Shown: positions 14,727-32,229 of the stretch, in pieces
Position numbering within the stretch: position 1 is the first letter of the stretch
How the letters are laid out: each line of letters begins with the position of its first letter
From: Candidatus Solibacter sp.
Lineage (GTDB): Bacteria; Acidobacteriota; Terriglobia; Bryobacterales; Bryobacteraceae
Assembly: GCA_025463045.1 (NCBI GenBank)
Contig: JAOAPT010000148.1
Coordinates: 1 to 35,463, forward strand
Length of the DNA stretch: 35,463 bases
Direction of reading: 5' to 3'
Program-made: the position numbers and the translations under genes
The notes under the pieces: model-generated
Databases searched by the model: none
Told to the model about the DNA's origin: nothing
The model's input: the letters and a program-made list of their open reading frames with translations, nothing else

Positions 14727-15746
14727 TCAACTAGAAGCGAGAAAAGATACATAAAGTTGGCTATATTCCCGCACCATTCGCTCCGCGGAGAATCGCTCCG
14801 ACGCAGCGGAGCGGCAGACTGCGGCATCCAGCCGGTCGACGCCGGCAATCGCGCGCGCCATCTCGTCGGCATCGCGTACGAGGAATCCTGTACGCCCTTC
14901 TTCGATCACCTCGGCAAGCGCGCCGGAAGGGAAGGCGACGACCGGAGTTCCGCAGGCAAGCGACTCCATCGCCACGAGCGAACTGGTTTCGGCCACGAGG
15001 CTCGGTATCAGAACACAGCGGGCCGATGCCATCAGGCGTACTTTCTCGGCGATCCCGACCGGGCCAAGAAAGCGGTGCGGCGGCGATAGCCTGGGCTGCA
15101 GCACTTGGTGCCAATACTGCTCGTGTTCCGGGTAAGGGAAGAGCTTGCCCGCGAGGTAGAGCGGAACACCGGCCTTCTCCGCCGCGTCGATCGCAAGGTG
15201 AAATCCCTTCTCGGGGCAGATCCGTCCGAGCGCGAGGACGTAATCCTCCGCCGGGGCATTGGGCGCCTTCAGCAGATCCAAAGGAACGCCGTTCTCGATT
15301 ACGGGGGTCATCAGCGCGGACGGCGGGCAGGCGCTCGCTTGCGATGCGGATACACAGTTCAACCACGTATGCGCACGCGGCAGGTTGAAGATCGTCTCCG
15401 GGTAGAAGGACGGCGGAAGGTGCAGCGTAACCAGCGCGGGCGGCCCCGCAGCCGGCAGGTAGTGGAAGAAATCGAGGCCGTGGAAATGCACAACGTCGAC
15501 GCGGCGGCCGCGCAGCACCTCACAGATTGTCGACTGCCATCGTCGATATGTGGAGTCGGACTCGGCATTGTCGGCCGGAATCGCGATCAGTTCGCCCATG
15601 ACCCGCGAGCCCTCGGCCGCTATCACGATCGAGTGGTGCCCGGCGGCATTGAGGCCGCGATCGAGCAGCGCGAGGATCTGTTCAGCGCCTCCGGCAGAGT
15701 CGAGGCTGACCGGCGCGAACGGATACGCGACGCTGAGGATCGTCAG
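14727..15746 (-). CDS. Glycosyltransferase family 4 protein (proposed CTG start)
   Basis: LSVAYPFAPVSLDSAGGAEQILALLDRGLNAAGHHSIVIAAEGS; GRICPEKGFHLAIDAAEKAGVPLYLAGK; ETSSLVAMESLACGTPVVAFPSGALAEVIEEGRTGFLV. Start assigned to a CTG overlapping the upstream TGA with SD AGAGGTGG; nearest in-frame canonical start is a GTG at 15797. Confidence 0.8.
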   Translation of the reverse strand: MTILSVAYPFAPVSLDSAGGAEQILALLDRGLNAAGHHSIVIAAEGSRVMGELIAIPADNAESDSTYRRWQSTICEVLRGRRVDVVHFHGLDFFHYLPAAGPPALVTLHLPPSFYPETIFNLPRAHTWLNCVSASQASACPPSALMTPVIENGVPLDLLKAPNAPAEDYVLALGRICPEKGFHLAIDAAEKAGVPLYLAGKLFPYPEHEQYWHQVLQPRLSPPHRFLGPVGIAEKVRLMASARCVLIPSLVAETSSLVAMESLACGTPVVAFPSGALAEVIEEGRTGFLVRDADEMARAIAGVDRLDAAVCRSAASERFSAERMVREYSQLYVSFLASS

Positions 15747-16537
15747 GATATCGCCACCTCTAGCTCGCGCGCCGCTTCGACAGCACGAGCCCGCCACACG
15801 GAGCCGTCGATGCCCCAATCGAACCTCTCGTAGTACAGCGTGCCGGCGTGCGGCGGCTCGGCGAAGTTGTACCGTGGTGCAGGACGGAAGCGCTCGTACG
15901 CCGTGGAAAACGCTGCGAGGGCGGCGCTCTGCGTGGCGAAGCACTGCAGCATCTGGCGCTTAAGGTTTGCCACCAACTCACTAAGCGGGACAGTGATTGC
16001 ATCCTCCGCAGCCCGCGCCAAAAACTCGTTAGTTGTGAGGCGCCCGAATTGTCCGTGATAGAGCGCGTACTCTACCACCTTGGGAACACAGCGGCTCTGG
16101 TTGGCGAGGTCGCGACAGGCGAGATGGATCGCGAACGCGAGCGAGTCGTGGTCGGGATGGCCGCCCTCGTAAGGCGGGACTAGCACGGTGTGCGGCTGCA
16201 TCTCGCGCAGCAGCGCCCCTACGCGCCGCGTCAGGCCGGCGAGTTGGTGCGCACACTCCTGGTCGGCGAATCCGAGGGCGAGGGCGCGCTCGCTATCGAT
16301 GCCCGCGAGTTGGAGCGCGGCCCCCAACTCCTGACGACGAGCATCGGCGTATGCCTCGCGGCTGGTGAACCCGTGGGCGTGCGCATCGAGCATATTGCGC
16401 GGCGCGCCGTCGGTCGCATGTACGATCCAGGCGTTCCGCAGCAAGGGAAACTGACCGCCGGCGCCGATAGTCTCGTCGTCGGGATGTGCGGCGAAGCAAA
16501 TCACGCAGTCGTCACTGGGCAGTAGCGAAGCAGTCAT
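15743..16537 (-). CDS. PIG-L family deacetylase
   Basis: CFAAHPDDETIGAGGQ and PYEGGHPDHDSLAFA motifs; ATG overlaps the upstream gene stop (ATGA at 16534-16537). Confidence 0.9.
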   Translation of the reverse strand: MTASLLPSDDCVICFAAHPDDETIGAGGQFPLLRNAWIVHATDGAPRNMLDAHAHGFTSREAYADARRQELGAALQLAGIDSERALALGFADQECAHQLAGLTRRVGALLREMQPHTVLVPPYEGGHPDHDSLAFAIHLACRDLANQSRCVPKVVEYALYHGQFGRLTTNEFLARAAEDAITVPLSELVANLKRQMLQCFATQSAALAAFSTAYERFRPAPRYNFAEPPHAGTLYYERFDWGIDGSVWRARAVEAARELEVAIS

Positions 16538-17544
16538 CTTGATAGGACCGTCGGAAGCGCTGCCGCGGCCTCGAGGACCGCGGAGTGCCACTCCCCCGGA
16601 GCGGGCTGGCGGAACAACGTCATCGTGGGATACCACGGACTGTCGCGGCGGTGCAGCATCCAGCGCCAATCGGCTTCCCAGGGCAGCAGCACCCAAACGG
16701 GAATCGCCAGGGCACCGGCAAGGTGGGCAAGCATGGTGTCCACGGTAATCAGGAGGTCGATGTTCAGCAGGTCTGCCGCTGCTTCGATAAGGTCGGGAGA
16801 CTCGCCGGAGACATCGTGGATCGGGTAGGGTGATTCGAAGTTGGCGAGTTCCGCGCGCGGCTCTCCGCGTTGAAAGCTGAAGTATTCGAACTCCGGGACG
16901 TGAAGCAGCGGGCGCAGATCGGCAAGGGAAATCGAACGTTCGGGGTTCCAGGCGCCCGAGCCCCACTGCAATCCAATCCGCACCTTCCCATTTGGTGGAT
17001 CTTCGATCCGGCTCCGCACTTTCTGCTCCGGCGTCAGGTGCAAGTAAGGAACTACATTCGGAATCGTGTCGAGAGTCGTGCGGAACGCGCGCGGCAGTTC
17101 CATCAGTTCGATCTGTTGATCCCATGGGGCGGAGCCCTCGTCGGACCAGGTGATCACGTCGTCGACGCCGGAAATCCCACCCATCACGTTGATCAGTTCA
17201 CCATGCGTTTGCACCATCACCCGCGCGGCGTCGCGGCGAACCATCGGCGCGTAGCGAGCGAACTGAATGGCATCGCCGAACCCATGCAGGCAGCGGATCA
17301 TTACGCGCTTGCCGGTGAACGGGCATCCGTCCCAGAACCGGTGCGGATCCGGTGTGCCGCGAGCGGCGATCCGGTCGCTCTCTCTCCAGGCATTCTCGAA
17401 TTGACCGGCCAGCATCCAGCACAGCCAGCGGTGAGCCCCGCACGAATCGGCATTGTGCCCGTGAAGTTCAGCACGATCCAGTAAGTGAAGCGCCTCCGGA
17501 ATGCGTCTTTTGGAGAAAGATTGCAGGGCAAGCTGAAAGCACAC
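16534..17544 (-). CDS. Glycosyltransferase family 9-like protein (ADP-heptose:LPS heptosyltransferase fold)
   Basis: VMIRCLHGFGDAIQFARYAPMV; KVRIGLQWGSGAWNPERSISLADLRPLL; DLLITVDTMLAHLAGALAIPVWVLLPWEADWRWM. Confidence 0.75.
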   Translation of the reverse strand: MCFQLALQSFSKRRIPEALHLLDRAELHGHNADSCGAHRWLCWMLAGQFENAWRESDRIAARGTPDPHRFWDGCPFTGKRVMIRCLHGFGDAIQFARYAPMVRRDAARVMVQTHGELINVMGGISGVDDVITWSDEGSAPWDQQIELMELPRAFRTTLDTIPNVVPYLHLTPEQKVRSRIEDPPNGKVRIGLQWGSGAWNPERSISLADLRPLLHVPEFEYFSFQRGEPRAELANFESPYPIHDVSGESPDLIEAAADLLNIDLLITVDTMLAHLAGALAIPVWVLLPWEADWRWMLHRRDSPWYPTMTLFRQPAPGEWHSAVLEAAAALPTVLSR

Positions 17545-17754: not shown

Positions 17755-18873
17755 ATGGCAAAGTTAATCTTAGTAACTGGCGGAGCCGGATTTATAGGTT
17801 CGCACGTATCTAAAGAGTTACTGGCCCGTGGATATTCCGTCCGCGCCCTGGACAGCCTGGTCCCACAGGTCCATGGCCCCGAGCGCCGCCGTCCGTCATA
17901 TCTTTCCCCGGATGTGGAGTTGATGGTCGGCGATGTGTGCGATCCGGCAGTGCTTGCGCGCGCACTGGATGGGGCTCACGCCGTGATTCATCTGGTGGCT
18001 TTGGTAGGCGTGGGCCAGAGCATGTACCAGATTGCCGACTACACCAGCGTCAACAACCTTGGAACAGCTCTCCTCCTGCAGGCGCTAAGTACTCGTCCGG
18101 TGGAAACTCTCGTAGTCGCGTCGAGTATGAGCATTTACGGAGAGGGCCTCTACCAGGACCTTGATGGCAATGTCCAGATAGCACAGGACCGCACTCTCGA
18201 ACAGCTCAAGATGGGCGATTGGGAGAGCAAGGACGACCTTGGGCGGCCGTTGATCCCTGTGCCCACACCCGAGAGCAAGATGCCCGCGCTTGCGTCGGTC
18301 TACGCCCTCTCGAAATTCGATCAGGAGCGTCTGTGCCTCATCGTAGGGCGCGCTTACGGCATTCCAACGGTCGCCCTGCGCTTCTTCAACACGTACGGAC
18401 CGGACCAGGCTCTCTCTAATCCCTACACCGGGGTGCTCAGCAATTTTGCATCGCGGGTGCTCAACGGTCAGCCGCCGCTGATCTTCGAAGATGGACTGCA
18501 GATGCGCGATTTCGTCAGCGTGTACGACGTGGCGCGCGCATGCCGCCTGGCGTTGGAAACTCCAGCGGCTGCCGGTCAAGCCTTCAACATATCGAGCGGA
18601 CTGCCGATGACCGTGAAGGAGGTGGCGGAGCGGACGATTCGCGCGATCGGCAGTTCGCACATCAAGCCGGCGATCACCGGAAACTACCGTGCGGGAGACA
18701 TCCGCCATTGCTTCGCCGACATCTCGCTTGCCAGACGCGTGCTTGGTTGGCAGCCGCTGGTATCGCTCGAACAGGGGTTGGAGGATCTCGCGGCATGGCT
18801 CGAAGGCCAGACCGCCATCGACCGCGGCCTGGAGGCGAGAGCGGAACTCGCGGCACGGGGACTGATGGTATGA
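17755..18873 (+). CDS. NAD-dependent epimerase/dehydratase (dTDP-L-rhamnose 4-epimerase-like)
   Basis: LILVTGGAGFIGSHVSKELLARGYSVRALDSLVPQVHG; ASSMSIYGEGLY; YALSKFDQE active site; LRFFNTYGPDQALSNPYTGVLSNFASRVLNG. Confidence 0.9.
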   Translation: MAKLILVTGGAGFIGSHVSKELLARGYSVRALDSLVPQVHGPERRRPSYLSPDVELMVGDVCDPAVLARALDGAHAVIHLVALVGVGQSMYQIADYTSVNNLGTALLLQALSTRPVETLVVASSMSIYGEGLYQDLDGNVQIAQDRTLEQLKMGDWESKDDLGRPLIPVPTPESKMPALASVYALSKFDQERLCLIVGRAYGIPTVALRFFNTYGPDQALSNPYTGVLSNFASRVLNGQPPLIFEDGLQMRDFVSVYDVARACRLALETPAAAGQAFNISSGLPMTVKEVAERTIRAIGSSHIKPAITGNYRAGDIRHCFADISLARRVLGWQPLVSLEQGLEDLAAWLEGQTAIDRGLEARAELAARGLMV

Positions 18874-20921
18874 GACGTGGGCCAAAGGCCGCCTCCGGGA
18901 AGACGCGAACACCAACGCTCGGCATAGTCGAGTGGTTTCGCCCCGGCGAGTACGATCGTGTGGAGACTGTGCTCGCCGACCTGCACGCGCTAAAGGTTCG
19001 CGACCTGCGCACGGGTATCTGTTGGGCGGACTGGTACGCTTCCGAAGGCGATGGCTGGTACGCCTGGCTGCTGCCGCGCCTTGCACAGGACTTCAACATT
19101 CTTCCGTGCGTCCTCTACACACCCGCGCCGCTCGGAATCGTGCCCAAGTTCTCCTCGCCGCCGCGCACGCCCAAAGCGTATGCCGATTTCATCGACGTGA
19201 TGATCACGCGGTTCGGTCAATACTTCGATTGGGTCGAGTTGTGGAACCAGCCCAACAGCCCGAGCGAGTGGGACGCGCGCATCGATCCCGAATGGCAGAT
19301 CTTCAGCGAGATGATCGGCGGCGCCGCCTACTGGGCGCACAAACGCGGTAAGAAGACGGTGCTCCCCGGGACGTGGCCGGTTGATCTGGGCTGGCTCGAA
19401 CTCATGCAGGAGCGCGGCGTCCTGAAGTATATCGACGCCGTGAGCCTCCACGGCTTCCCGGGCAGTACCGAGTTTCCCTGGCGCGGATGGGAGCGCGAGG
19501 TGAGCGATGCGCGCGCGAAACTGGAGCGCCTCGGCGAGACGAACCAGTTGTGGGTTACGCAAACCGGCTTCTCCACCTGGCGCGGCGAAGAATGGGCGCA
19601 GGTGCGAGCGCTCGTCGATGCGTTGGACGCGCCCGTCGAGCGGATCTACTGGCAATCCGCGCACGATCGCATTCCCGCGACCGGCGGCGGAGATTCCTAC
19701 CATTCCGACGAACGCGAGTACCACTATGGACTAAAACGCGCCGACGGGAGTCCGAAACTGCTGTTCCGATTGTGGTCGGAGGGCGGGCTGGAAGCGGTGC
19801 GCGAAGACGCGCGGAGCACGTCGCGGGGCAAGACCAACGGCTCGCGGCGTGGTCACGTGCTGATCACCGGCGGCGCTGGTTTCATCGGCACGAATCTGGC
19901 GGATCGCCTCTTGTCCTCCGGTCGTTCCGTGCTGGTCTACGACGATCTTTCGCGAGCCGGCAGCGAGCGAAATGTCGCCTGGCTGCGCGAGAAACACGGC
20001 GATGCTCTGCAGGTGGAGATCTCCGATATTCGAAATCGCGAAACTTTGCGCACCGCCGTCCGCTCCGCCGACCAGGTGTTTCATTTCGCCGCACAGGTAG
20101 CGGTGACCACCAGCCTGGCGGATCCCCTGCACGATTTTGAAGTGAACGTCGGTGGCACGTTGAATGTGCTCGAAGAGATCCGCCGGCGTGACAATCCTCC
20201 GCCCCTTCTGTTCACGTCGACGAACAAGGTCTACGGAGGTCTCGCCGACCTCGCGCTGGAAAAGAACTGCACGCGCTATCAGCCGTTGGACGCCGCCCTC
20301 CGCACCGGCATCAGCGAAGATCGGCCGCTGGATTTTCATAGCCCGTACGGCTGCTCGAAAGGGGCTGCCGATCAGTACGTGCTGGATTACGCGCGAACCT
20401 TCGGCATGCCCGCCGTCGTCTTCCGCATGAGTTGCATCTACGGTCCGCATCAGATGGGAAATGAAGATCAGGGCTGGGTCGCGCACTTTCTGATTCGCGC
20501 AATCGAAGGCAAGCCGATCACCTTCTACGGCGACGGCATGCAGGTCCGCGACATCCTCTTCGCCGACGATCTGGTGGACGCGTTCCTGCTGGCGCAATCC
20601 AACATTCACACGCTTTCGGAGCAAGCCTTCAACATCGGTGGCGGGCTCGGCAATACGATCAGCCTCGTCGAACTGCTCGACTTGATGGCGCGGCTGCAGG
20701 GAGACAAACCCATCGCGCGGCTGAAGGAGTGGCGGCCCGGCGACCAGCGCTATTACGTGTCCGACACGCGCAAATTCAAGGCGGCGACCGGTTGGGCGCC
20801 TAAGGTAAACGCGCAGGAGGGTGTCGAGCGATTGTTCCAGTGGCTGCTGATGGCGCGCGGACTGCCGGCGCCGCACGACCTCGTGTCGAAGGGAGGGTTC
20901 CATGCGCTTCTCGCTCATTAA
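18870..20921 (+). CDS. Fusion: N-terminal glycosidase-like (beta-xylosidase/GH39-like TIM barrel) domain + C-terminal CDP-paratose-2-epimerase-like SDR
   Basis: N-domain TLGIVEWFRPGEYDRVETVLADLHALKVRDLRTGICWADWY...YFDWVELWNQPNSPSEWDARIDPEW...LWVTQTGFSTW; C-domain HVLITGGAGFIGTNLADRLL...SPYGCSKGAADQYVLDYARTFGMPAVVFRMSCIYGPHQMGNEDQGWVAHF. ATG overlaps the upstream stop (ATGA). Confidence 0.88.
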   Translation: MRRGPKAASGKTRTPTLGIVEWFRPGEYDRVETVLADLHALKVRDLRTGICWADWYASEGDGWYAWLLPRLAQDFNILPCVLYTPAPLGIVPKFSSPPRTPKAYADFIDVMITRFGQYFDWVELWNQPNSPSEWDARIDPEWQIFSEMIGGAAYWAHKRGKKTVLPGTWPVDLGWLELMQERGVLKYIDAVSLHGFPGSTEFPWRGWEREVSDARAKLERLGETNQLWVTQTGFSTWRGEEWAQVRALVDALDAPVERIYWQSAHDRIPATGGGDSYHSDEREYHYGLKRADGSPKLLFRLWSEGGLEAVREDARSTSRGKTNGSRRGHVLITGGAGFIGTNLADRLLSSGRSVLVYDDLSRAGSERNVAWLREKHGDALQVEISDIRNRETLRTAVRSADQVFHFAAQVAVTTSLADPLHDFEVNVGGTLNVLEEIRRRDNPPPLLFTSTNKVYGGLADLALEKNCTRYQPLDAALRTGISEDRPLDFHSPYGCSKGAADQYVLDYARTFGMPAVVFRMSCIYGPHQMGNEDQGWVAHFLIRAIEGKPITFYGDGMQVRDILFADDLVDAFLLAQSNIHTLSEQAFNIGGGLGNTISLVELLDLMARLQGDKPIARLKEWRPGDQRYYVSDTRKFKAATGWAPKVNAQEGVERLFQWLLMARGLPAPHDLVSKGGFHALLAH

Positions 20922-22221
20922 TCCGCCGTGGAGCTTCGAAGGCAGTATCTATTTCGGATGCCGCGAACCTCACCTGCCGCTCGAATACGGCTACTCGAAG
21001 GTCCTGCTGGAGCGCGCGGGTCACGACGTGCAGATCGTAGACGCGCAGTTGGACGCGCTCACGCTTGCGGAGGTACGCGATAGGGTGGCGGATTTCCGGC
21101 CCGATTTCACCGTCGTCACGACGGCTCCGAGTTATCTCTTCTGGCGATGCGCACCCCCCGAGTTGCGCATTCCGCAGGAGACCGTCCGCGTGGTGCGCGA
21201 TGTCGGTGGCACCATGGTAGCGGTGGGTCCGCATGCGTCGACGACTCCCAAAGCCACGCTTCGCAAGCTCGACGTCGACGTCGCGATACTCGGTGAATGC
21301 GAAGAAATCCTTCCCCAGCTGACCGGCGATTGGGACGCTGTGCACTCGCTCTGTTACCGCAGCGGCGGCGAAATCCGCGTGAACGGTGGACCCCACTCGG
21401 TCGACATGACGACCCTGCCGGCATTGCACTGGAACGCGCAGACCGTGGCCCGCCACGCTCACCATCACCATCGTTTCGACGCGCCTCCGCAAGGCCCCGG
21501 CGCGGAGATGGAAACATCGCGCGGGTGTCCCTATCACTGCACATTCTGCGCGAAGGACAACTTTCGCAATTCATTCCGCCGTCGTCCCGTAGACATCATC
21601 GGCGAAGAGTTGGACAACCTGATCGCGGCCGGCGCGCGCTACGTCTACTTCATCGACGAGATCTTCCTGCCGTATCGCAACGTGCTGGAGACAATCGCGC
21701 AACGTGGGATTCCGTTCGGGATCCAGACGCGCATCGACCTGTGGAGTGAAGAAATGATCGACCTGCTGGGAACGGCGGGCTGCGTTTCGATCGAGGCGGG
21801 CGTCGAGAGCATCACGGAAGAAGGTCGCGAGTGGTTGGATAAAAAGTGCAAGATCTCCACGGCCGAAATCAGCGAACGCTTGATCCGCGCCAAGCTGCAA
21901 GTGCCTTTCGTCCAGGCCAACCTCCTCGATTCGAGCGCTGACGATCCGGCGGCCGTCGCGGCATGGCGCGCCGAATTGCACGCCAACGGTGTCTGGGCCA
22001 ATGAGCCGGTCCCCCTTTTCCCATACCCCGGTTCGCCGGACTACACGAGGCGATGGGGACCGCCCGACGATCTCGCCTGGGAGCGTGCGCACGCCGCATA
22101 CCTGGGCCAGTTCGACGCCTTCAGCGATATCCAGGAGCAGCGCCCTGTGCCACTGGTGCAACTTGAGCTGGCACAACTCGAACTGGTGCAACTCGAAATG
22201 CCGCGGAGTCCTCATGCGTGA
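20902..22221 (+). CDS. B12-binding-domain radical SAM protein
   Basis: N-terminal cobalamin-binding-like region MRFSLINPPWSFEGSIYFGCREPHLPLEYGYSKVLLERAGHDVQIVDAQLDAL; CxxxCxxC motif SRGCPYHCTFCAKDNFR; IEAGVESITEEGREWLDKKCKIST. Confidence 0.9.
   Translation: MRFSLINPPWSFEGSIYFGCREPHLPLEYGYSKVLLERAGHDVQIVDAQLDALTLAEVRDRVADFRPDFTVVTTAPSYLFWRCAPPELRIPQETVRVVRDVGGTMVAVGPHASTTPKATLRKLDVDVAILGECEEILPQLTGDWDAVHSLCYRSGGEIRVNGGPHSVDMTTLPALHWNAQTVARHAHHHHRFDAPPQGPGAEMETSRGCPYHCTFCAKDNFRNSFRRRPVDIIGEELDNLIAAGARYVYFIDEIFLPYRNVLETIAQRGIPFGIQTRIDLWSEEMIDLLGTAGCVSIEAGVESITEEGREWLDKKCKISTAEISERLIRAKLQVPFVQANLLDSSADDPAAVAAWRAELHANGVWANEPVPLFPYPGSPDYTRRWGPPDDLAWERAHAAYLGQFDAFSDIQEQRPVPLVQLELAQLELVQLEMPRSPHA
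22153..22197 (+). repeat. Three imperfect 15-bp tandem repeats encoding L(V/A)QLE at the C-terminus of the radical SAM protein
   Basis: ctggtgcaacttgag / ctggcacaactcgaa / ctggtgcaactcgaa. Confidence 0.9.
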
Positions 22222-23323
22222 ATCCAGAGTCGAGCGCGTTCTGATGACCGGCGATACCGTCGGCGGAGTCTGGACATTCACCTTGGAACTCGCGCGCGCG
22301 CTGGGTGCGCACGGCATTGAAGTGATGCTCGCCACGATGGGCGGCGACGCCAGCGACGATCAGCAAATGGAAGCGGCGTCGATTCCGAATCTCCGCTTGC
22401 GAACCAGCCGCTACAAGCTCGAGTGGATGGACGATCCGTGGCTCGACATCCAGGAGAGCGGCACGTGGCTGCTCGGCCTGCAACAGCAGTTCGCGCCGGA
22501 CCTGATTCACCTGAACACGTACGGGCACGGCGCCCTGGCGTGGCGAGCGCCCGTGGTGTTGACGGCGCACTCGTGCGTGCTCTCCTGGTGGAACGCCGTT
22601 AAACCCTACCCGATTCCCGTGCAGTGGACGCGCTATCGCCACGAAGTCGAGTACTCGCTCAAAGCGGCGGATCTGCTCACCGCGCCTTCTCACGCCATGC
22701 TGCGCACTATCGAAGAGAACTACGGCAGCGATCTGCCGGCATGCCGCGTCGTCGCGAACGGCCGGAGCGCAGCGCGCTACCGGGCAACCGCGAAGGAGCC
22801 GTTCGTGCTGACCGCCGGGCGGCTGTGGGATGAGGCGAAGAACGTCGCCGCCGTAGCGCGCGTCGCGGCGTCACTTCCCTGGCCGGTCTACCTGGCCGGC
22901 GCTGAACGCCACCCCAGCGGTCGATGCTCCGAATTCCCCGGCTGCCGCACACTGGGTTGGCTTTCGGCGGACGCCTTGGCGGATTGGTACTGCCGCGCGT
23001 CGATCTACGCGCTCCCGGCGAGGTACGAACCTTTCGGACTCTCGGCCGTCGAGGCCGCGCTCTCCGGCTGTGCCTTGGTTTTGGGCGATATTCCGAGCCT
23101 TCGCGAGCTGTGGGGCGACGCCGCCGTATTCGTCCCGCCGGGCGATGATCATCGCCTCGAATCGGCGCTACGCGGCTTGATCGAAGATCCGGCGGGCCGC
23201 GAAGATCTGGCGCGGCGAAGCTCCGCACGCGCTCGAACGTTTACGCCCGAACGCATGGCGGTCGATTACGCGCAGGTCTACGCAGGGCTGGTCGGCAGGC
23301 GGAGGATGTCGTGCGCTTCGTAG
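22214..23323 (+). CDS. Glycosyltransferase family 4 protein
   Basis: RVLMTGDTVGGVWTFTLELARALGAHGIEVMLATMGG; FVLTAGRLWDEAKNVAAVARVAA; ASIYALPARYEPFGLSAVEAALSGCALVLGDIPSLRELWGDAAVFVPPGD. ATG 22214 overlaps the previous stop by 8 bp. Confidence 0.9.
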   Translation: MRESRVERVLMTGDTVGGVWTFTLELARALGAHGIEVMLATMGGDASDDQQMEAASIPNLRLRTSRYKLEWMDDPWLDIQESGTWLLGLQQQFAPDLIHLNTYGHGALAWRAPVVLTAHSCVLSWWNAVKPYPIPVQWTRYRHEVEYSLKAADLLTAPSHAMLRTIEENYGSDLPACRVVANGRSAARYRATAKEPFVLTAGRLWDEAKNVAAVARVAASLPWPVYLAGAERHPSGRCSEFPGCRTLGWLSADALADWYCRASIYALPARYEPFGLSAVEAALSGCALVLGDIPSLRELWGDAAVFVPPGDDHRLESALRGLIEDPAGREDLARRSSARARTFTPERMAVDYAQVYAGLVGRRRMSCAS

Positions 23324-24426
23324 TCTTCACCCATTCGCTGGTTTCCGACTGGAATCACGGGAACGCGCACTTTCTACGCGGGATCGCGACCGAGTTGGTG
23401 CACCGCGGGCACGATGTCCGCATCTTCGAACCACACGATGGATGGAGCCTCAGCAATCTGATCGCCGCGCATGGCGCCGCGCCGTTGGCCGGCTTCGCGG
23501 AGGCCTATCCAAAGATTCACAGCATCTTCTACGACCAGCAGCGGCCCGATCTCAGCCGCGCGCTTCAAGGCGCCGACATCGTCATTGTTCACGAGTGGAA
23601 TCCCCATGAACTCGTAAAGCGCATCGGAGATTACCGCGCGTGCCATCCGAGCTTCAAGCTTTTCTTCCACGACACGCATCACCGTAGTGTCACCGAGCCG
23701 GGCTCGATGTCCTCCTACGATCTGCGTCACTACGACGGCGTGCTGGCGTATGGACGCGTGATCCGCGATCTCTACCGCGCACGCAAGTGGGCGCAAGACG
23801 CCTGGACGTGGCATGAGGCCGCCGACATACGCGTCTTCCGGCCGCGCGCGAATGCTCAACAAGCCGGCGATCTGGTGTGGATCGGCAACTGGGCCGATGA
23901 CGAGCGTTCCGAAGAGCTTCGCGAGTTTCTGATCGAACCGGTGAAGGCGCTCAAACTCAAGGCGCGGGTCTATGGCGTGCGCTATCCGCGTCACGCACTG
24001 GAGGCGCTTGCCGATGCGGGAATCGAATATGGCGGCTGGCTGCCCAACTATCGCGTACCCGAAGTCTTCGCGCAGTATCGCGTCACAGTGCACATTCCGC
24101 GCCGTCCGTACGCGCGAGCCTTGCCCGGAATTCCGACCATTCGGCCCTTCGAGGCGCTGGCCTGCGGAATCCCCATGGTCTCGGCGCCTTGGGACGATTC
24201 GGAGCAGCTCTTCCAACCCGGTCTCGACTTTCTGACGGCGCGCAACGGCGCGGAAATGACAGCCTCTCTCCGCCGTATCTTAAGCGACGCGACGCTGGCC
24301 AGGGAACTGGCCGCTCACGGATTAGCCACGATTCGCGCGCGCCACACGTGCGCGCACCGCGCCGACGAGCTGCTTGCGATTGCCGCCTCGGTCGGCGAAC
24401 GCTCGGTCGCGGAAGGAGTCCGCTAG
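23311..24426 (+). CDS. CgeB-like glycosyltransferase
   Basis: FVVFTHSLVSDWNHGNAHFLRGIATELVHRGHDVRIFEPHDGWS; TVHIPRRPYARALPGIPTIRPFEALACGIPMVSAPWDDSEQLFQPGLDFL. GTG start. Confidence 0.8.
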   Translation: MRFVVFTHSLVSDWNHGNAHFLRGIATELVHRGHDVRIFEPHDGWSLSNLIAAHGAAPLAGFAEAYPKIHSIFYDQQRPDLSRALQGADIVIVHEWNPHELVKRIGDYRACHPSFKLFFHDTHHRSVTEPGSMSSYDLRHYDGVLAYGRVIRDLYRARKWAQDAWTWHEAADIRVFRPRANAQQAGDLVWIGNWADDERSEELREFLIEPVKALKLKARVYGVRYPRHALEALADAGIEYGGWLPNYRVPEVFAQYRVTVHIPRRPYARALPGIPTIRPFEALACGIPMVSAPWDDSEQLFQPGLDFLTARNGAEMTASLRRILSDATLARELAAHGLATIRARHTCAHRADELLAIAASVGERSVAEGVR

Positions 24427-25512
24427 ATGCAGATCGCCTTCTTTGGCTCGAGCCTGGTTTCGGCGTATTGGAACGGCGCGGCGACTTACTACCGCGGCCT
24501 CGTGCGTGCCTTGTACGCCCGCGGCCATCGCGTCACGTTCTACGAACCAGATGCGTACGAGAGGCAGCAGCATCGCGATATCGAAGACCCGTCGTGGGCG
24601 CAAATCGTCGTCTTTCCCGCGACGGAGGATGGCGTCCGTCGTGCAGTGGAGAGCGCACGCGGCGCCGACGTCGTCATCAAGGCGAGTGGCGTCGGAGTCT
24701 TCGACGAGCTTCTGGAGGCGGAGATCGCCGGATCGAAGACCTCGGACAATCTGGTCGCGTTCTGGGATGTCGATGCGCCAGCCACGCTGGACCGCATCAA
24801 CCGCAATCCCGGTGATCCCTTCGCGCCGCTGATTCCGCTCTACGACATCATCTTCACTTACGGCGGAGGCGATCCGGTGGTCGCCGCGTATCAGGCGCTC
24901 GGTGCGCGCGATTGCGTGCCGATTTACAACGCGCTCGATCCGGAGACGCATCACCCCGAGCAGCCCGATTCGCGCTTCGCCGGCGCGCTCGGCTTCCTCG
25001 GCAATCGTCTGCCTGACCGTGAGCGGCGGGTAGAAGAATTCTTTCTCGGACCCGCGGCGAAGCTGCCCGGCCTGCAGTTTCCACTCGGAGGCGCAGGCTG
25101 GGGCGACAAACCAAAAACCGCCAACATTCGCTATCTGGATCACGTCTACACGCGGGATCACAACGCCTTCAACTGCTCGCCGATGGCCGTCCTGAATATC
25201 TCGCGCGAGAGTATGGCGCGCTACGGCTTCTCGCCGGCCACCCGCGTGTTCGAAGCCGCTGGTGCTGGTGCATGCGTCATCACGGATGAGTGGGAGGGAG
25301 TCGAGCTCTTTCTCGAGCCGGACACCGAAATCCTCGTTGCGCGCGATGGAGGCGAAGTCATCGACCACCTCCTTTCGCTCACGCACCAGAAGGCCCGCGA
25401 AATCGGCGAAGCTGCCTTGCGCCGCGTGCTCGCCGCGCACACATATGCCCATCGCGCCGCCGAGGTCGAAGCCGTGCTCGAAGGCAAAGCCGCCCGGGGA
25501 GTCGCCTCATGA
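24427..25512 (+). CDS. CgeB-like glycosyltransferase
   Basis: IAFFGSSLVSAYWNGAATYYRGLVRALYARGHRVTFYEPDAYERQ; AVLNISRESMARYGFSPATRVFEAAGAGACVITDEWEGVELFLEPDTEILVARDGGEV. Confidence 0.85.
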   Translation: MQIAFFGSSLVSAYWNGAATYYRGLVRALYARGHRVTFYEPDAYERQQHRDIEDPSWAQIVVFPATEDGVRRAVESARGADVVIKASGVGVFDELLEAEIAGSKTSDNLVAFWDVDAPATLDRINRNPGDPFAPLIPLYDIIFTYGGGDPVVAAYQALGARDCVPIYNALDPETHHPEQPDSRFAGALGFLGNRLPDRERRVEEFFLGPAAKLPGLQFPLGGAGWGDKPKTANIRYLDHVYTRDHNAFNCSPMAVLNISRESMARYGFSPATRVFEAAGAGACVITDEWEGVELFLEPDTEILVARDGGEVIDHLLSLTHQKAREIGEAALRRVLAAHTYAHRAAEVEAVLEGKAARGVAS

Positions 25513-26756
25513 AGCCGGAATACGACATCGTCATCCTCGGACTCTCGGTGACCTCTTCGTGGGGCAACGGCCACGCCACCACCTATCGCAGCCTGATTCG
25601 CGGACTCGCGGAGCGCGGACATCGCGTCCTGTTTCTGGAGCGCGACACGCCGTGGTACGCGGGCAACCGCGACGAACCGAATCCGCGCGGCGCGCACACG
25701 GAACTGTACGACAATTTCGACGACCTGCCCGCCCGCTTCGAACACGCCGTCGCCGATGCCGCGCTCGTGATCGTCGGTTCGTTCGTGCCGGAAGGAACCC
25801 GCGTCGGCGAATGGGTCCTCTCGATCGCGAAGGGGACGACTGCCTTCTACGATATCGATACGCCGGTGACGCTCGCCAAACTCGCCGAGGGCTGCCGCGA
25901 ATATGTCACGCCGGAGTTGATCCGCCGCTATCGCCTCTACCTCTCTTTCACCGGAGGGCCGGTCTTGCGCCTGATCGAAAACCGCTACGGATCGCCGATG
26001 GCCAGAGCGCTCTACTGTTCCGTCGACACCGAGCTATACCGGCCGGAACCGCGCCCCTGTCGATGGGATCTTGGCTATCTCGGTACTTACAGCGACGACC
26101 GGCAGCCCGTACTCGACAGCCTGCTGTTGGAGCCGGCACGCCAATGGAAGGCAGGGCAATTCGCAGTCGTCGGCCCGATGTATCCCAAAGAAATTCGCTG
26201 GCCCGCCAATGTCGATCGCAACTACCACCTTTCCCCGCGTGAGCATCCGCAGTTCTACGGCTCGCAGCGATTCACGCTCAACGTGACGCGAGACGCGATG
26301 AAGCAGGCGGGCTATTCGCCCAGCGTGCGCCTCTTCGAGGCGGGCGCTTGCGCCGCGCCCGTCATCAGCGATTGGTGGGAAGGCTTGGACTCGCTGTTCG
26401 AGATCGGCAAAGAAGTTCTGATCTCCTCGAACAGCGAGGACACGCTTCGTTACTTGAGAGACTGCCCTGACGCAGAGCGTAGCGCGCTCGGCGAAGCGGC
26501 GCGGCTCCGCATTCTCGCAGAGCACACGCCGTGCCAGCGGGCGGCACAACTCGACAGCTACCTGAAGGAAGTCTATGACAACTTTTCTTCTCATCAGGCA
26601 CGGCGAAACGGACGCAAACGGCAAGTCGATCATGGGGTGGAGAACGGGCTGGCATCTCAACGCCCGGGGGAGGCAACAGGTGGAGAAACTCGCGCGAAGG
26701 CTGGAGACGCTGCCGATCCGCGCGGTTTACACGAGCCCGCTGGAGCGGGCACTTGA
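25509..26756 (+). CDS. CgeB-like glycosyltransferase; ORF runs 182 bp into the next gene
   Basis: YDIVILGLSVTSSWGNGHATTYRSLIRGLAERGHRVLFLERDTPWYAGNRDE; FTLNVTRDAMKQAGYSPSVRLFEAGACAAPVISDWWEGLDSLFEIGKEVLIS. Residues after ...LDSYLKEVY are out-of-frame translation of the phosphatase gene. Confidence 0.85.
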   Translation: MKPEYDIVILGLSVTSSWGNGHATTYRSLIRGLAERGHRVLFLERDTPWYAGNRDEPNPRGAHTELYDNFDDLPARFEHAVADAALVIVGSFVPEGTRVGEWVLSIAKGTTAFYDIDTPVTLAKLAEGCREYVTPELIRRYRLYLSFTGGPVLRLIENRYGSPMARALYCSVDTELYRPEPRPCRWDLGYLGTYSDDRQPVLDSLLLEPARQWKAGQFAVVGPMYPKEIRWPANVDRNYHLSPREHPQFYGSQRFTLNVTRDAMKQAGYSPSVRLFEAGACAAPVISDWWEGLDSLFEIGKEVLISSNSEDTLRYLRDCPDAERSALGEAARLRILAEHTPCQRAAQLDSYLKEVYDNFSSHQARRNGRKRQVDHGVENGLASQRPGEATGGETRAKAGDAADPRGLHEPAGAGT

Positions 26757-27177
26757 GACCGCCGAACCGGTGGCGCAACGGCACGGGTTGGCGCCCCGGC
26801 CGCTCGACGATCTGGGCGAAATGCGCCTCGGCGCATGGGAAGGGAAGTCCTTGGCGGAACTCGATCAGCGGGAGGATTTCAAGCGCTTCAACACGTATCG
26901 CAGCGGAGTGCGCGCGCCCGGGGGCGAATTGATGCTGGAGACTCAAACGCGCATGGTCGCCCGCCTCGAAGCGCTCGCGCACGAGCACCCCGATCAAACC
27001 GTCGCCGTAGTCAGTCACGGCGATCCGCTGCGAGCCGTGGTGGCCCACTACTTGGGGATGTCGTTGGATCACCTGCTCCGCTTCGAGATCAGTCCCGCGT
27101 CCCTCAGTGTCCTGGAAGCCGGCGAATGGGGTGCGAGAATCACGTGCCTCAACGACACGGGAGAGGTTCCGCGATGA
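26575..27177 (+). CDS. Histidine phosphatase (phosphoglycerate-mutase-like) family protein
   Basis: FLLIRHGETDANGKSIMGWRTGWHLNARGRQQVEKLARRL; VYTSPLERALETAEPVA; VAVVSHGDPLRAVVAHYLGM. Confidence 0.92.
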   Translation: MTTFLLIRHGETDANGKSIMGWRTGWHLNARGRQQVEKLARRLETLPIRAVYTSPLERALETAEPVAQRHGLAPRPLDDLGEMRLGAWEGKSLAELDQREDFKRFNTYRSGVRAPGGELMLETQTRMVARLEALAHEHPDQTVAVVSHGDPLRAVVAHYLGMSLDHLLRFEISPASLSVLEAGEWGARITCLNDTGEVPR

Positions 27178-28277
27178 AGCTCGTGATCTTCGGCTTGAGC
27201 GTCAGTTCCTCCTGGGGCAATGGCCACGCGACGCTCTGGCGCGGCCTGTGTGGAGCGCTCGCCCGGCGCGGCCACGACATCGTATTTCTGGAGCGCGACC
27301 TGCCCTTCTACGCCAGCCATCGCGACCTGACGGACCTCCCAGGCGGCGGCCAGTTGATCCTCTACCGCGAGTGGCAGAACGCCCTCGACGCGGCAGCTCC
27401 CCATCTGGCCGACGCGGATGTCGCGATGGTAACCTCCTACTGCCCCGACGGTGTCGTCGCCACCGACCTCGTGCTCCTCTCCGCCGCGCAGCTCAAAGTG
27501 TTTTACGACCTCGACACGCCGGTCACCCTCTCGCGTCTCGCAGAAGGACTGCCCGTCGATTACATCGGCCCGCGCGGCCTTGCGGATTTCGACGTCGTCC
27601 TCAGCTATACCGGCGGCCGCTCGCTCGATGGATTGCGCCGGCAATTGGGTGCGCGGCGTGTCGCGCCGCTCTATGGCAGCGTCGATCCCGACATTCACAA
27701 GCCCGTGCCGGTCGACGAACGGTTTCGAGCCGACCTCGGATATCTCGGCACGTTCGCGGCGGACCGTCAAGCCGCCGTACGCGAGTTGTTCGTCGAACCC
27801 GCTCGAGGTCTACCCCATAGTCGATTCCTGCTCGCCGGCTCGATGTACGACGGCAGTTTTCCCTGGCAGCCCAACATCTTCTTCATTGATCACCTCGCCC
27901 CTGCCGATCACCCTGCGTTCTACTGCTCGACGCGTCTGACGCTGAACGTCACCCGTCGCTCCATGGCGGAAACGGGGTACTGCCCGTCCGGGCGGCTCTT
28001 CGAAGCCACCGCATGCGGGGCGCCGGTGCTCAGCGATTGTTGGGTCGGCCTGGATCAGTTCTTCGAACCGGGTTCCGAGATCTTGCTTGCCGGCAGTACC
28101 GAAGAAGCGATCGCGGCGCTCGACCGTAGTCCCAAAGAATTGCGGCGCATCGGTAGCGCAGCGCGGGAGCACACGCTCGCGAAACACACGGCGGCAATCC
28201 GCGCCGTGGAACTGGAGCGGATTCTCGACCAGACCTGGGGGTCGCGCGCGGAATCCGCCGAGATGGAGACAGTCTGA
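27174..28277 (+). CDS. CgeB-like glycosyltransferase, close paralog of 25509..26756
   Basis: KLVIFGLSVSSSWGNGHATLWRGLCGALARRGHDIVFLERDLPFYASHRDL; LTLNVTRRSMAETGYCPSGRLFEATACGAPVLSDCWVGLDQFFEPGSEILLA. ATGA overlap with the previous gene. Confidence 0.88.
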   Translation: MKLVIFGLSVSSSWGNGHATLWRGLCGALARRGHDIVFLERDLPFYASHRDLTDLPGGGQLILYREWQNALDAAAPHLADADVAMVTSYCPDGVVATDLVLLSAAQLKVFYDLDTPVTLSRLAEGLPVDYIGPRGLADFDVVLSYTGGRSLDGLRRQLGARRVAPLYGSVDPDIHKPVPVDERFRADLGYLGTFAADRQAAVRELFVEPARGLPHSRFLLAGSMYDGSFPWQPNIFFIDHLAPADHPAFYCSTRLTLNVTRRSMAETGYCPSGRLFEATACGAPVLSDCWVGLDQFFEPGSEILLAGSTEEAIAALDRSPKELRRIGSAAREHTLAKHTAAIRAVELERILDQTWGSRAESAEMETV

Positions 28278-28278
28278 T

Positions 28279-29028
28279 ATGTGGGGAATAATTCCAGCGG
28301 CAGGGAAGGGAAGCCGCATTCAACCTCTGGCCTTCTCGAAAGAACTCTTGCCCGTGAGTGCGCATCTGGAAGACGGTAAGCATCGGCCGCGCGCCGTGAG
28401 CGACTACCTGATGGAGCGTCTCGTAATCGGCGGCGCAAGGCGCCTCTGCTGTGTCATCTCACCGTCAAAATCCGACATCCTTGAATACTACGGCGGCTCT
28501 GCGTATGGCACGCCGATCTGTTATTGCGTCCAGCCGGAGCCGCTTGGATTGTGCGACGCCATCTTCCGCGCACTGCCGGTGATCGACGAACGCGAGCCGG
28601 TCCTCATCGGGTTGCCCGACACCGTCTGGTTCCCGGCCGACGGCTTGCGCCAACTTCCGGACGATCGCCTGTCGTTCCTCCTCTTCCGCGTCGAACGGCC
28701 GCAGTTCTTCGACGCCGTCATCACCGATGACGAGGGACGAGTGGCGGAAATCCAGGTGAAGCAGCCCGCGCCCGGGTCGAACTGGATCTGGGGCGCCTTC
28801 AAAATGCCGGGTGCGATCTTCCGCGAACTTCACGATCTGTGGCTTCAAAGAGGCGACGAATACATGGGTACGTTGGTGAACGCATGGTTGGCTCGCGGCG
28901 GACAGGCGTGGTCCGTCCGCGCGACGGGCTCGTATTTGGATGTCGGCGCGATGGAAGGCTACTTCGAGGCGATGCGCACCTTGTCGGAGCCCGGGATTGA
29001 AGCCGCCGCATCCGGAGGGCGTCCGTGA
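28279..29028 (+). CDS. Sugar nucleotidyltransferase (RmlA-like)
   Basis: MWGIIPAAGKGSRIQPLAFSKELLPVSAHLEDGKHRPRAVSDYLMERLVIGGARRLCCVISPSKSDILEYYGG; QPEPLGLCDAIFRALP. Confidence 0.88.
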   Translation: MWGIIPAAGKGSRIQPLAFSKELLPVSAHLEDGKHRPRAVSDYLMERLVIGGARRLCCVISPSKSDILEYYGGSAYGTPICYCVQPEPLGLCDAIFRALPVIDEREPVLIGLPDTVWFPADGLRQLPDDRLSFLLFRVERPQFFDAVITDDEGRVAEIQVKQPAPGSNWIWGAFKMPGAIFRELHDLWLQRGDEYMGTLVNAWLARGGQAWSVRATGSYLDVGAMEGYFEAMRTLSEPGIEAAASGGRP

Positions 29029-29750
29029 CCGCACAGTGGACGCAGGAAGAAATTCGCCGGCGTGTATCCGAACTCGGCGACTGGTTTCAAAACATGGATC
29101 TGGGCGGCGTGCAGACCGCGCCGCACCACTTCCTCGGTGATTATCCGTCGTGTAAGTGGCGCAGCTTCTCCCACGCGATCCCGGCCGATTTGAGCGGGAA
29201 AAGCGTGCTCGATATCGGCTGCAACGCGGGGTTCTACGCAATCGAGATGAAGCGCCGCGGCGCTGCGCGCGTCGTCGGCATCGATTCCGATCCCACCTAC
29301 CTCGATCAGGCCCGCTTCGCCGCCGACGTCGCCGGTGCGAAGATCGAGTTTCGTGAACTCGACGTCTATCAGGTCGAGAACCTCCACGAGAAGTTCGACA
29401 TGGTGTTCTTCATGGGCGTGCTGTATCATCTACGCCACCCGCTGCTCGCGCTCGACCTGCTCTGGGAGCACGTCGTCGGCGATACCCTCGTCTTCCAATC
29501 GCTCATGCGTGGCAGCCGTGACATCGTGCCCGTGGAGCCCGACTACCCCTTCTCGGAGACCGGCATTTTCCACGATGCCGCGTATCCCGCGATGTACTTC
29601 GTGGAGCATAGCTATTCGCACGATCCCACCAACTGGTGGATTCCGAATCGCGCGGGTGCTGAGGCCATGCTGCGCAGCGCCGGATTTACGATCACCGGCC
29701 ATCCCGAGGAGGAAGTGTACATCTGCAAGAGGAGGAGCGACCGTGGTTGA
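29025..29750 (+). CDS. SAM-dependent methyltransferase (CmoB/DUF1698-like; possibly the Rta_06860-type family)
   Basis: VLDIGCNAGFYAIEMKRRGAARVVGIDSDPTYLDQARFAADVAGAKIEFRELDVYQ; DMVFFMGVLYHLRHPLLALDLLWE. GTGA overlap with the previous gene. Confidence 0.88.
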   Translation: MTAQWTQEEIRRRVSELGDWFQNMDLGGVQTAPHHFLGDYPSCKWRSFSHAIPADLSGKSVLDIGCNAGFYAIEMKRRGAARVVGIDSDPTYLDQARFAADVAGAKIEFRELDVYQVENLHEKFDMVFFMGVLYHLRHPLLALDLLWEHVVGDTLVFQSLMRGSRDIVPVEPDYPFSETGIFHDAAYPAMYFVEHSYSHDPTNWWIPNRAGAEAMLRSAGFTITGHPEEEVYICKRRSDRG

Positions 29751-30627
29751 GGCCGTGATGCTCTGGAACGAGCCGAACAACCTGTCCCATTGGAACTTCG
29801 AAATCGATCCCGGATGGACGGCGTATGCGCGAATGATCAACCTCGCGGCCGACGCCGTCAGGGCAGAGCGTCCCAACCTGCCGCGTGCGCTCGGAGGCAT
29901 CTCGCCGATCGATCCGGGCTTTCTCCGCAATATGCAAACGCAATGCGTCTTGGGGCATGTGAATGTTGTCGCACTCCATGGCTTCCCCCTCGATTGGAAT
30001 CACTGGACGATTCACGAGTGGCCCGACAAGCTGGACGAAATCCGCGCTGTCACCGATCTGCCGCTGTGGATCTCAGAGGTCGGCGTATCCACGTTCGGCG
30101 CCGACGAAGTCCAGCAGTTCGGCCTCAAGCGAACCGCGGAATTGCTGATCGGACGCGCCGAGCGCATCCACTGGTATAGCCTCTACGACCTGCCACGCGC
30201 ATGGCCCGCAACCACGCGCCATCGCGAGGCCGAAGGCTCGTCCTACTATCGTCACTTCTACATGGGCCTCGTCCGCGAGGACGGAACGCCGAAACCTGCG
30301 TACGCGGATTTTACGGACTACACGCCCGATCTCGGAATCTGCCAGTGGTTCCACTTCGAAGACCCGCGACTGGATGATGCTGTGGCCAAGCTCAAGGAAC
30401 TCGGAGTGCGTCATCTGCGCACAGGTCTGAGCTGGGCCGACAGCTTTCGCCCCGAAGCCGAAAAATGGTTCGACCGCCAGATGAAAGCGCTCGAGCCCTT
30501 CGACACCACCGTGACCTACTGCTTCACTCCCGAACATCTGGGAGTCTTGCCGAACCACACCAGCCCGCCGAAAGAACCTCAGCAGTTCGCGGATTTCTGC
30601 GCCGCCATGACGCGCAGATACGCTTGA
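29743..30627 (+). CDS. Circularly permuted glycosidase-like (beta-xylosidase/GH39-like) TIM-barrel protein
   Basis: GTG start with SD AGGAGG, 8-bp overlap with the methyltransferase. Begins at VVEAVMLWNEPNNLSHWNFEIDPGW (middle of the barrel) and ends with the barrel N-terminal half DLGICQWFHFEDPRLDDAVAKLKELGVRHLRTGLSWADSF...FADFCAAMTRRYA*, compared with 18870..20921. Confidence 0.82.
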   Translation: MVEAVMLWNEPNNLSHWNFEIDPGWTAYARMINLAADAVRAERPNLPRALGGISPIDPGFLRNMQTQCVLGHVNVVALHGFPLDWNHWTIHEWPDKLDEIRAVTDLPLWISEVGVSTFGADEVQQFGLKRTAELLIGRAERIHWYSLYDLPRAWPATTRHREAEGSSYYRHFYMGLVREDGTPKPAYADFTDYTPDLGICQWFHFEDPRLDDAVAKLKELGVRHLRTGLSWADSFRPEAEKWFDRQMKALEPFDTTVTYCFTPEHLGVLPNHTSPPKEPQQFADFCAAMTRRYA

Positions 30628-31081: not shown

Positions 31082-31248
31082 ATGGGCGTTGTTCGAGTGA
31101 AGATCCAGACGGTCGACGACATCTATAAACTGCTCCGCACGGCTGTGATCGAGGTTCTGTCCGCATCGACTGGGCCGGAAATTACGAGGGACAGTTTCGT
31201 CTGCAAGCGATCGGGTCGCCGGCTAACTGGCGCTGCATCGGAAGATTA
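31082..31248 (+). pseudogene. Remnant of a short (WYL-like) hypothetical protein, internally deleted and frameshifted
   Basis: N-terminal piece MGVVRVKIQTVDDIYKLLRTAVIEV in one frame; C-terminal-like piece NYEGQFRLQAIGSPANWRCIGRL in another, starting at 31180. Confidence 0.4.
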
Positions 31249-32229
31249 GCCTGTTTTATCTGGCCGCCGTTTCTGCCGCGCCGACTTCGCTGGCACCGCG
31301 CCCCGATCCTTCTGCACGGGCTTGCGCGCGGCCGCGAGACTGCGCTTCAATGCCTGCATGATGTCGATCACCGGTGCCTTCGCCTGCCGCTCTCGCTGAC
31401 TTGACGCTCCGGCCGCGGGCGTCGGCGAACGCTTCGCAATCAAGTCGCGCAGGTGCTCTTCGAACGTGTCCTTCAGCTTCGCCGGATCGAAGGGCGCCTC
31501 CATCGCGCGAATCAGCAGGACCGCGAGTTCCAGTTCCTTCGGCGAGACATCTACATCGCCCTTCCATTCCTGGTCGGTCCGGACTTCGTTGGCGTAGAAG
31601 AGCGTGTGGAGGATCAAGCCCTGCTTCCCAGGTCGAATCACAACCGCGTGCTCGCGCCCGTGCATCGCAAGCGTACCGAGGGCCACATCGCCCGTACTCT
31701 GCAGCGCCTTGACGAGAAGAACGAAAGGCTTCTCTCCCTCCGGCTCGGGGACAAGATAGTAGGACGTATCGAAGTAGATCGGGTCGATTTCGGCGAGCCG
31801 TACAAACTCCAATATCGGCAACTCGGTGGATGTGTCCGGACGCAGTGCGGCAATTTCCTCACGCCTCAAAACCACGAACTGGTCCTTCTCCACTTCATAG
31901 CCCTTCATGATCGAATCCGCGGAAACCGGAGTTTTCGCGTCGTCGGCAACCGTACTCTGACGCACGCGCGACACGGTCTCGGGCTGGGGTTGCGAAGAGG
32001 GTGGCGAAGAGGGCCGCGTTGATATCGGCCGCGGGAATTCGTGAACTACACCGCGCGACCCGGACTCGCGGCGTTCCGGCGGATCGGCCTCTTCCTCTAC
32101 ATCCGCCTCCGGCTCCGCTGCATAGACGTGATGAAACTTGACTCGCTCCCGCCGTGCCGCTTTGTACATCCGAACCGGGACGGCAACCATTCCGAACGCG
32201 ATTCTGCCGCGCCACACCGTTGAAGCCAC
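31246..32229 (-). CDS. ku: Ku protein (non-homologous end joining)
   Basis: MASTVWRGRIAFGMVAVPVRMYKAARRERVKFHHVY; IMKGYEVEKDQFVVLRREEIAAL; IDPIYFDTSYYLVPEPEGEKPFVLLVKAL; ELELAVLLIRAMEAPFDPAKLKDTFEEHLRDLI. Confidence 0.93.
   Translation of the reverse strand: MASTVWRGRIAFGMVAVPVRMYKAARRERVKFHHVYAAEPEADVEEEADPPERRESGSRGVVHEFPRPISTRPSSPPSSQPQPETVSRVRQSTVADDAKTPVSADSIMKGYEVEKDQFVVLRREEIAALRPDTSTELPILEFVRLAEIDPIYFDTSYYLVPEPEGEKPFVLLVKALQSTGDVALGTLAMHGREHAVVIRPGKQGLILHTLFYANEVRTDQEWKGDVDVSPKELELAVLLIRAMEAPFDPAKLKDTFEEHLRDLIAKRSPTPAAGASSQRERQAKAPVIDIMQALKRSLAAARKPVQKDRGAVPAKSARQKRRPDKTG

Follow-up and report, generated by a model that had tools for sequence, protein, structure and literature searches.

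Circularly permuted enzymes are uncommon in nature. Among TIM barrels, transaldolase is a natural permutation relative to class I aldolase (PMC2213659), and for glycosidase barrels the documented cases that we have found so far are the GH70 glucansucrases of clan GH-H, whose elements run α3-β4…β8-α8-β1…β3 (PMC4919382). In the open literature that we searched, whose coverage is incomplete, we met no naturally permuted member of clan GH-A and no permutation associated with GH39. By sequence, the best solved relative of the protein described here, P0002, is PslG (PDB 4zn2 and 5bx9), a Pseudomonas glycosidase that is intracellular or membrane associated, is encoded within a polysaccharide synthesis cluster, a setting like that of P0002, and runs in the order β1 to β8. 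Residues E165 and E276 of PslG are its catalytic pair and are reported to be critical for hydrolytic activity (PMC6813494). The nearest family to P0002 that we found occurs in the same gene cluster and consists of unpermuted barrels fused to an SDR domain, named “NAD-dependent epimerase/dehydratase” in RefSeq. Intact fusions share the NEP and TE motifs of P0002; the family differs from it in its normal order, in the SDR fusion, and in the frequent loss of glutamates when a permuted gene is present.

We analyzed a stretch of 35,463 nucleotides from Candidatus Solibacter sp. (contig JAOAPT010000148.1), here called the window, which carries both kinds of barrel on its plus strand. The unpermuted barrel, with its halves in the order A-B, is the N-terminal domain (18870..19784; BLASTP and alignment) of the fusion protein P0001 (18870..20921), and domain matches place the SDR/NAD-dependent epimerase-dehydratase domain at 19854..20849. 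The gene for P0002 (29743..30627; 294 aa) begins with a GTG codon that overlaps the end of a TIGR04290 methyltransferase gene by 8 bases, and a ribosome-binding site, AGGAGG, can be read from the sequence at 29730..29735. The B half of P0002 comes first (29743..30294; native residues 1 to 184, strands β4 to β8), followed by a new linker from the old C terminus (α8) to the old N terminus (β1) at about residues 185 to 190 (30295..30312) and by the A half (30313..30624; residues 191 to 294, strands β1 to β3 and helix α3). A 125-aa open reading frame directly after P0002 (30685..31062, plus strand) had no relative among the loci examined from beyond the window's own genome.

The B-A order, proposed in a preliminary description from alignment by eye, was borne out by BLASTP, which returned two rotated matches: residues 122 to 296 of P0001 with residues 5 to 184 of P0002 (35% identity, E 8e-24) and residues 5 to 116 with residues 185 to 294 (37%, E 1e-19). 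We also rotated P0002 to each of its 294 possible starting points and scored every version against a profile built from 28 unpermuted barrels. The score peaked at 204 bits, in a single alignment covering profile positions 4 to 286, when the chain was opened at residues 188 to 190; the best single match in native order reached 123 bits, and 500 shuffled versions of P0002 scored at most 5 bits. The swap point between the two halves is thus exact to within one residue. It had also been claimed that joining the C terminus to the N terminus leaves no gap or overlap; the joined stretch (TR…LWN) is of equal length by eye, but MAFFT opens one gap column. PslG gave the same picture, matching P0002 only as swapped segments (residues 3 to 189 with 132 to 324, and 198 to 293 with 22 to 128), and a profile of the permuted family matched PslG likewise (1.4e-7, again as two swapped segments).

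Using an alignment of 70 sequences, AF2 predicted a (β/α)8 barrel for P0002 (pLDDT 90.7, pTM 0.90; pLDDT 34 from the single sequence), with loop 157-166 as the least certain stretch. The eight strands (residues 2-7, 48-53, 75-79, 108-113, 141-145, 197-200, 224-230, and 254-260) alternate with helices and correspond, by comparison with PslG and the unpermuted cousins, to β4, β5, β6, β7, β8, β1, β2, and β3. The predicted fold and the placing of the presumed catalytic residues are those of clan GH-A: E10, the presumed acid/base, follows Asn in WNEPN at the end of β4 (29770..29772), and E112, the presumed nucleophile, lies in WISEVG at the end of β7, strand 108-113 (30076..30078). In the alignment with PslG they fall on chain residues 139 and 250, which a constant offset of 26 converts to E165 and E276. 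The chain order of the clan, β1 to β8, is replaced by β4 to β8 and then β1 to β3, and P0002 is a new, permuted form of a known kind of enzyme. Compared in chain order with the PDB, the model gave only weak general TIM-barrel matches in Foldseek (best TM about 0.4), as expected of a permuted chain, although this is not positive proof. The halves might instead form a domain-swapped dimer, which would be compatible with the sequence, but this arrangement appears very unlikely since AF2 closes the barrel within one chain with high confidence and the linker is short but sufficient.

The resemblance to the known permutations is limited. GH70 is cut almost where P0002 is, with P0002 starting at β4 and ending with α3, one helix away, but GH70 enzymes belong to an unrelated clan, act in α-glucan chemistry, and are large multidomain proteins, and the likeness is one of cut point only. 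Transaldolase differs in a shift of two units and in its chemistry.

To survey the B-A order in other organisms, we scanned one genome per species and confirmed at least 537 relatives of P0002, of which the best 80 were retained. These 80 came from Acidobacteriota, Myxococcota, Pseudomonadota, Nitrospirota, Gemmatimonadota, Verrucomicrobiota, Bacteroidota, and Armatimonadota and were 67 to 83% identical to the window copy. The sequence data derive partly from metagenome-assembled genomes (MAGs), and finished chromosomes with the permuted gene include CP012673, CP016211, CP053418, and AP025591. Nearly all relatives open with M/V-I/V-EA..WNEPNN, with the start codon at that point. In 118 distinct full-length permuted sequences of about 294 aa, both E10 and E112 were invariant (118/118), 89 positions were near-invariant, and the W, N, P, and H beside the glutamates were invariant or nearly so. 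The permuted protein is therefore a widespread family rather than a one-off.

Damaged copies were also seen. A 13-Mb myxobacterial genome holds a remnant of the permuted gene that consists of the A half only and is 65% identical (L222; G1306:C1:1519544-1519828), and in a genome of the same taxonomic family as that of the window the permuted ortholog is split over two frames, as the result of a frameshift or of a sequencing error (L006/L008; G014:C179:43747-44623). Such copies, and the fact that rearranged-half proteins can arise in this way, would fit a view of P0002 itself as what remains of two truncated barrel genes or as their fusion, or else as an assembly artifact, with no folded product. 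We regard this as extremely improbable in light of the number of distinct sequences that share this start and are of nearly equal length, some of them in finished chromosomes, their near-invariant positions, the confident full-barrel model, and the shared phylogeny of the two halves. Truncation, fused leftovers, and assembly error are ruled out by the conserved orthologs, and the suggestion that P0002 is a complete permuted barrel rather than a random truncation has held up. Whether the barrel is catalytic is a separate matter. Unpermuted cousins have been kept after losing their catalytic glutamates, which makes a binding role conceivable for the family, and P0002 might by extension be a noncatalytic carbohydrate-binding or scaffold protein of an assembly complex; the near-invariance of both glutamates and their neighbors, unlike the situation in the unpermuted family, makes this unlikely.

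Existing models capture the family poorly. No NCBIfam model matched it, and PF11790 (Glyco_hydro_cc) matched P0002 with 25.6 bits (cut-off 21) over profile positions 66 to 194 of 237 only, which is the B half. Among 72 members, PF01229 was reached by 3, at best with 0.025, and GH13 and GH70 families were absent from the Pfam matches. RefSeq and GenBank label the family “beta-xylosidase” (e.g., WP_019461924.1 and QND28458.1), a name that looks automatic, and the records examined do not mention the permutation.

We then built a tree on the rotated alignment with GH39-like outgroups. The permuted sequences formed one clade (100/99) and the unpermuted barrel-SDR fusions a separate clade (95/99), and separate trees of the A half and the B half both recovered the clade of permuted sequences (100 and 99, respectively). 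This agreement opposes a chimera of two different barrels. Since the permuted sequences form one clade, a single permutation event is likely. Other GH-A enzymes have the normal strand order, and the permuted order is accordingly the derived one. Tandem duplication and trimming, the route suggested in the preliminary description, is a plausible origin; no tandem A-B-A-B intermediate was present in any locus examined, and direct support for the duplication model is thus lacking.

P0002 is encoded together with the TIGR04290 methyltransferase (29025..29750, plus strand) and the glycosyltransferases of what we refer to as the TIGR04290/TIGR04295 cluster, and belongs to that cluster. In the window, the cluster runs on the plus strand from a first SDR epimerase gene (17755..18873; domain matches) through P0001 to a TIGR04295 B12-binding radical SAM protein (20902..22221; 749.8 bits, cut-off 400), five glycosyltransferase genes (21989..28277, with open reading frames ending at 23323, 24426, 25512, 26756, and 28277; PF13439/PF13524), and a nucleotidyltransferase (28087..29028; PF00483) whose listed start is probably too early. 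A PIG-L de-N-acetylase gene (15743..17125; PF02585) and a glycosyltransferase gene beside it (14727..15944; domain match) lie on the minus strand and are divergently transcribed. In many relatives, the gene immediately downstream of the permuted one encodes PIG-L, and the PIG-L and glycosyltransferase pair (14727..17125 in the window) is found there in, for example, L015, L016, and L021. Just downstream of the cluster, the window carries a Ku DNA-repair protein gene (31246..32229, minus strand), and on rhizobial and Geminicoccaceae plasmids the cluster adjoins stress-type genes (DUF1003, manganese catalase, and ferritin-like).

For 55 relatives with 8 kb of sequence on both sides, we counted the neighboring genes. 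The methyltransferase was near the permuted gene in 42 loci and shared its strand in every one; in 39 of them, no more than 138 bases separated the two genes. The nucleotidyltransferase was near the permuted gene in 41. Clusters of Sinorhizobium and Roseomonas add genes for inositol-3-phosphate synthase, histidine phosphatase, UDP-glucuronate decarboxylase, zinc-dependent dehydrogenase, and Gfo/Idh proteins. The PIG-L pair, together with the inositol-phosphate synthase seen elsewhere, is reminiscent of how mycothiol-type glucosaminyl-inositol synthesis begins. In gene content, the cluster looks like one for the cytosolic assembly of a modified oligosaccharide or pseudo-oligosaccharide. The open literature searched, which leaves most subscription journals outside its coverage, yielded no relevant paper on TIGR04290 or TIGR04295.

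The unpermuted barrel of P0001 has lost both catalytic glutamates: Q127 replaces the acid/base in WNQPN (19248..19250), and Q231 replaces the nucleophile in VTQTG (19560..19562; both by alignment). PslG has reportedly been inactivated in the laboratory by an E-to-Q pair, and P0001 carries the same changes (NQP/TQT). Among 50 genomes that carry the permuted gene, 10 also have a fused unpermuted barrel; the window's own genome is a further case. Unpermuted barrels retained both glutamates in 8 of 11 genomes lacking the permuted gene but in only 2 of 13 genomes that have it (L122 and L128), such that a catalytic glutamate was lost in 11 of the 13 coexisting copies. The raw Fisher test for this association gave a P value of 0.011, which should not be over-read because there are too few independent evolutionary events: the tree needs only 2 state changes, and an independent-pairs test had too few pairs to reach significance. 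Other coexisting copies have H/Q, A, G, or D at the catalytic positions or are truncated, which suggests several independent losses. The three exceptions among the genomes without a permuted gene are Myxococcota (L194, L195, and L196 in G1315, G1351, and G1299) in which the barrel-SDR fusion is degraded and appears to be a retained pseudoenzyme without a visible replacement. Because of these three, degradation of the unpermuted barrel does not always accompany displacement.

The two barrels also alternate between genomes. TIGR04290 scored over its cut-off in 14 of 289 alphaproteobacterial genomes, and all 12 barrel-bearing genomes in this set were among these 14. Six carried the unpermuted barrel only, five the permuted barrel only, and one the permuted barrel plus an unpermuted fragment at a contig edge. 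The two TIGR04290-bearing genomes with neither kind of barrel are L235 (G476) and the genome with G542:C45:3180-3851. One reading of this alternation is that the two barrels perform different steps and that the clusters make different products. The low identity between the two families (only about 31%) and their co-occurrence in the window as well as in 10 of the 50 genomes, twice with an intact glutamate pair, would be in keeping with such a division, but the near-exclusive distribution among TIGR04290-bearing Alphaproteobacteria and the loss of glutamates in most coexisting copies speak against it, and we consider it doubtful, if less so than a noncatalytic P0002. Displacement of the unpermuted by the permuted barrel is likely but unproven, as few independent events lie behind the glutamate-loss association.

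Together, these results favor P0002 being a catalytically competent cytosolic GH-A-like barrel that was permuted once and has often replaced its unpermuted cousin in the same role, an explanation that we hold to be probable. The chain would have been permuted once, long ago, to β4-α4…β8-α8-β1-α1-β2-α2-β3-α3. The protein would work in the cytoplasm, because its chain starts inside the fold and leaves no room for a secretion signal. With Glu10 (β4) and Glu112 (β7) predicted to be placed as acid/base and nucleophile as in other retaining GH-A enzymes, P0002 most likely cleaves or transfers a β-type glycosidic bond in the product of the cluster defined by TIGR04290, TIGR04295, glycosyltransferases, SDRs, and a nucleotidyltransferase, often with PIG-L and inositol-phosphate synthase; this prediction of activity is drawn from sequence. 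In other genomes, the same step, on a shared substrate, may be carried out by the unpermuted barrel fused to its SDR domain, and where the permuted enzyme is present, the unpermuted domain is usually absent or short of catalytic glutamates. The more far-reaching proposal, that an enzyme of a widespread bacterial glycan-assembly pathway was replaced by its permuted version while the unpermuted domain was lost from its SDR partner or kept as a pseudoenzyme, we give about an even chance.

The permuted clade spans at least eight phyla, is strongly conserved, and sits in clusters that still hold the unpermuted relative, intact or decayed. This combination makes it possible to test directly how permutation affects the stability and activity of a TIM barrel and whether the two orders complement each other. 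If the displacement reading is true, the clusters would represent an experiment done by nature, within clan GH-A, on permutation and functional displacement, and the cut would be convergent with that of GH70. It is because the chain is permuted that curated models miss or half-match the family and that it carries a generic “beta-xylosidase” label. The P0002 family offers a way into an uncharacterized glycan-assembly cluster of soil bacteria and rhizobial plasmids.
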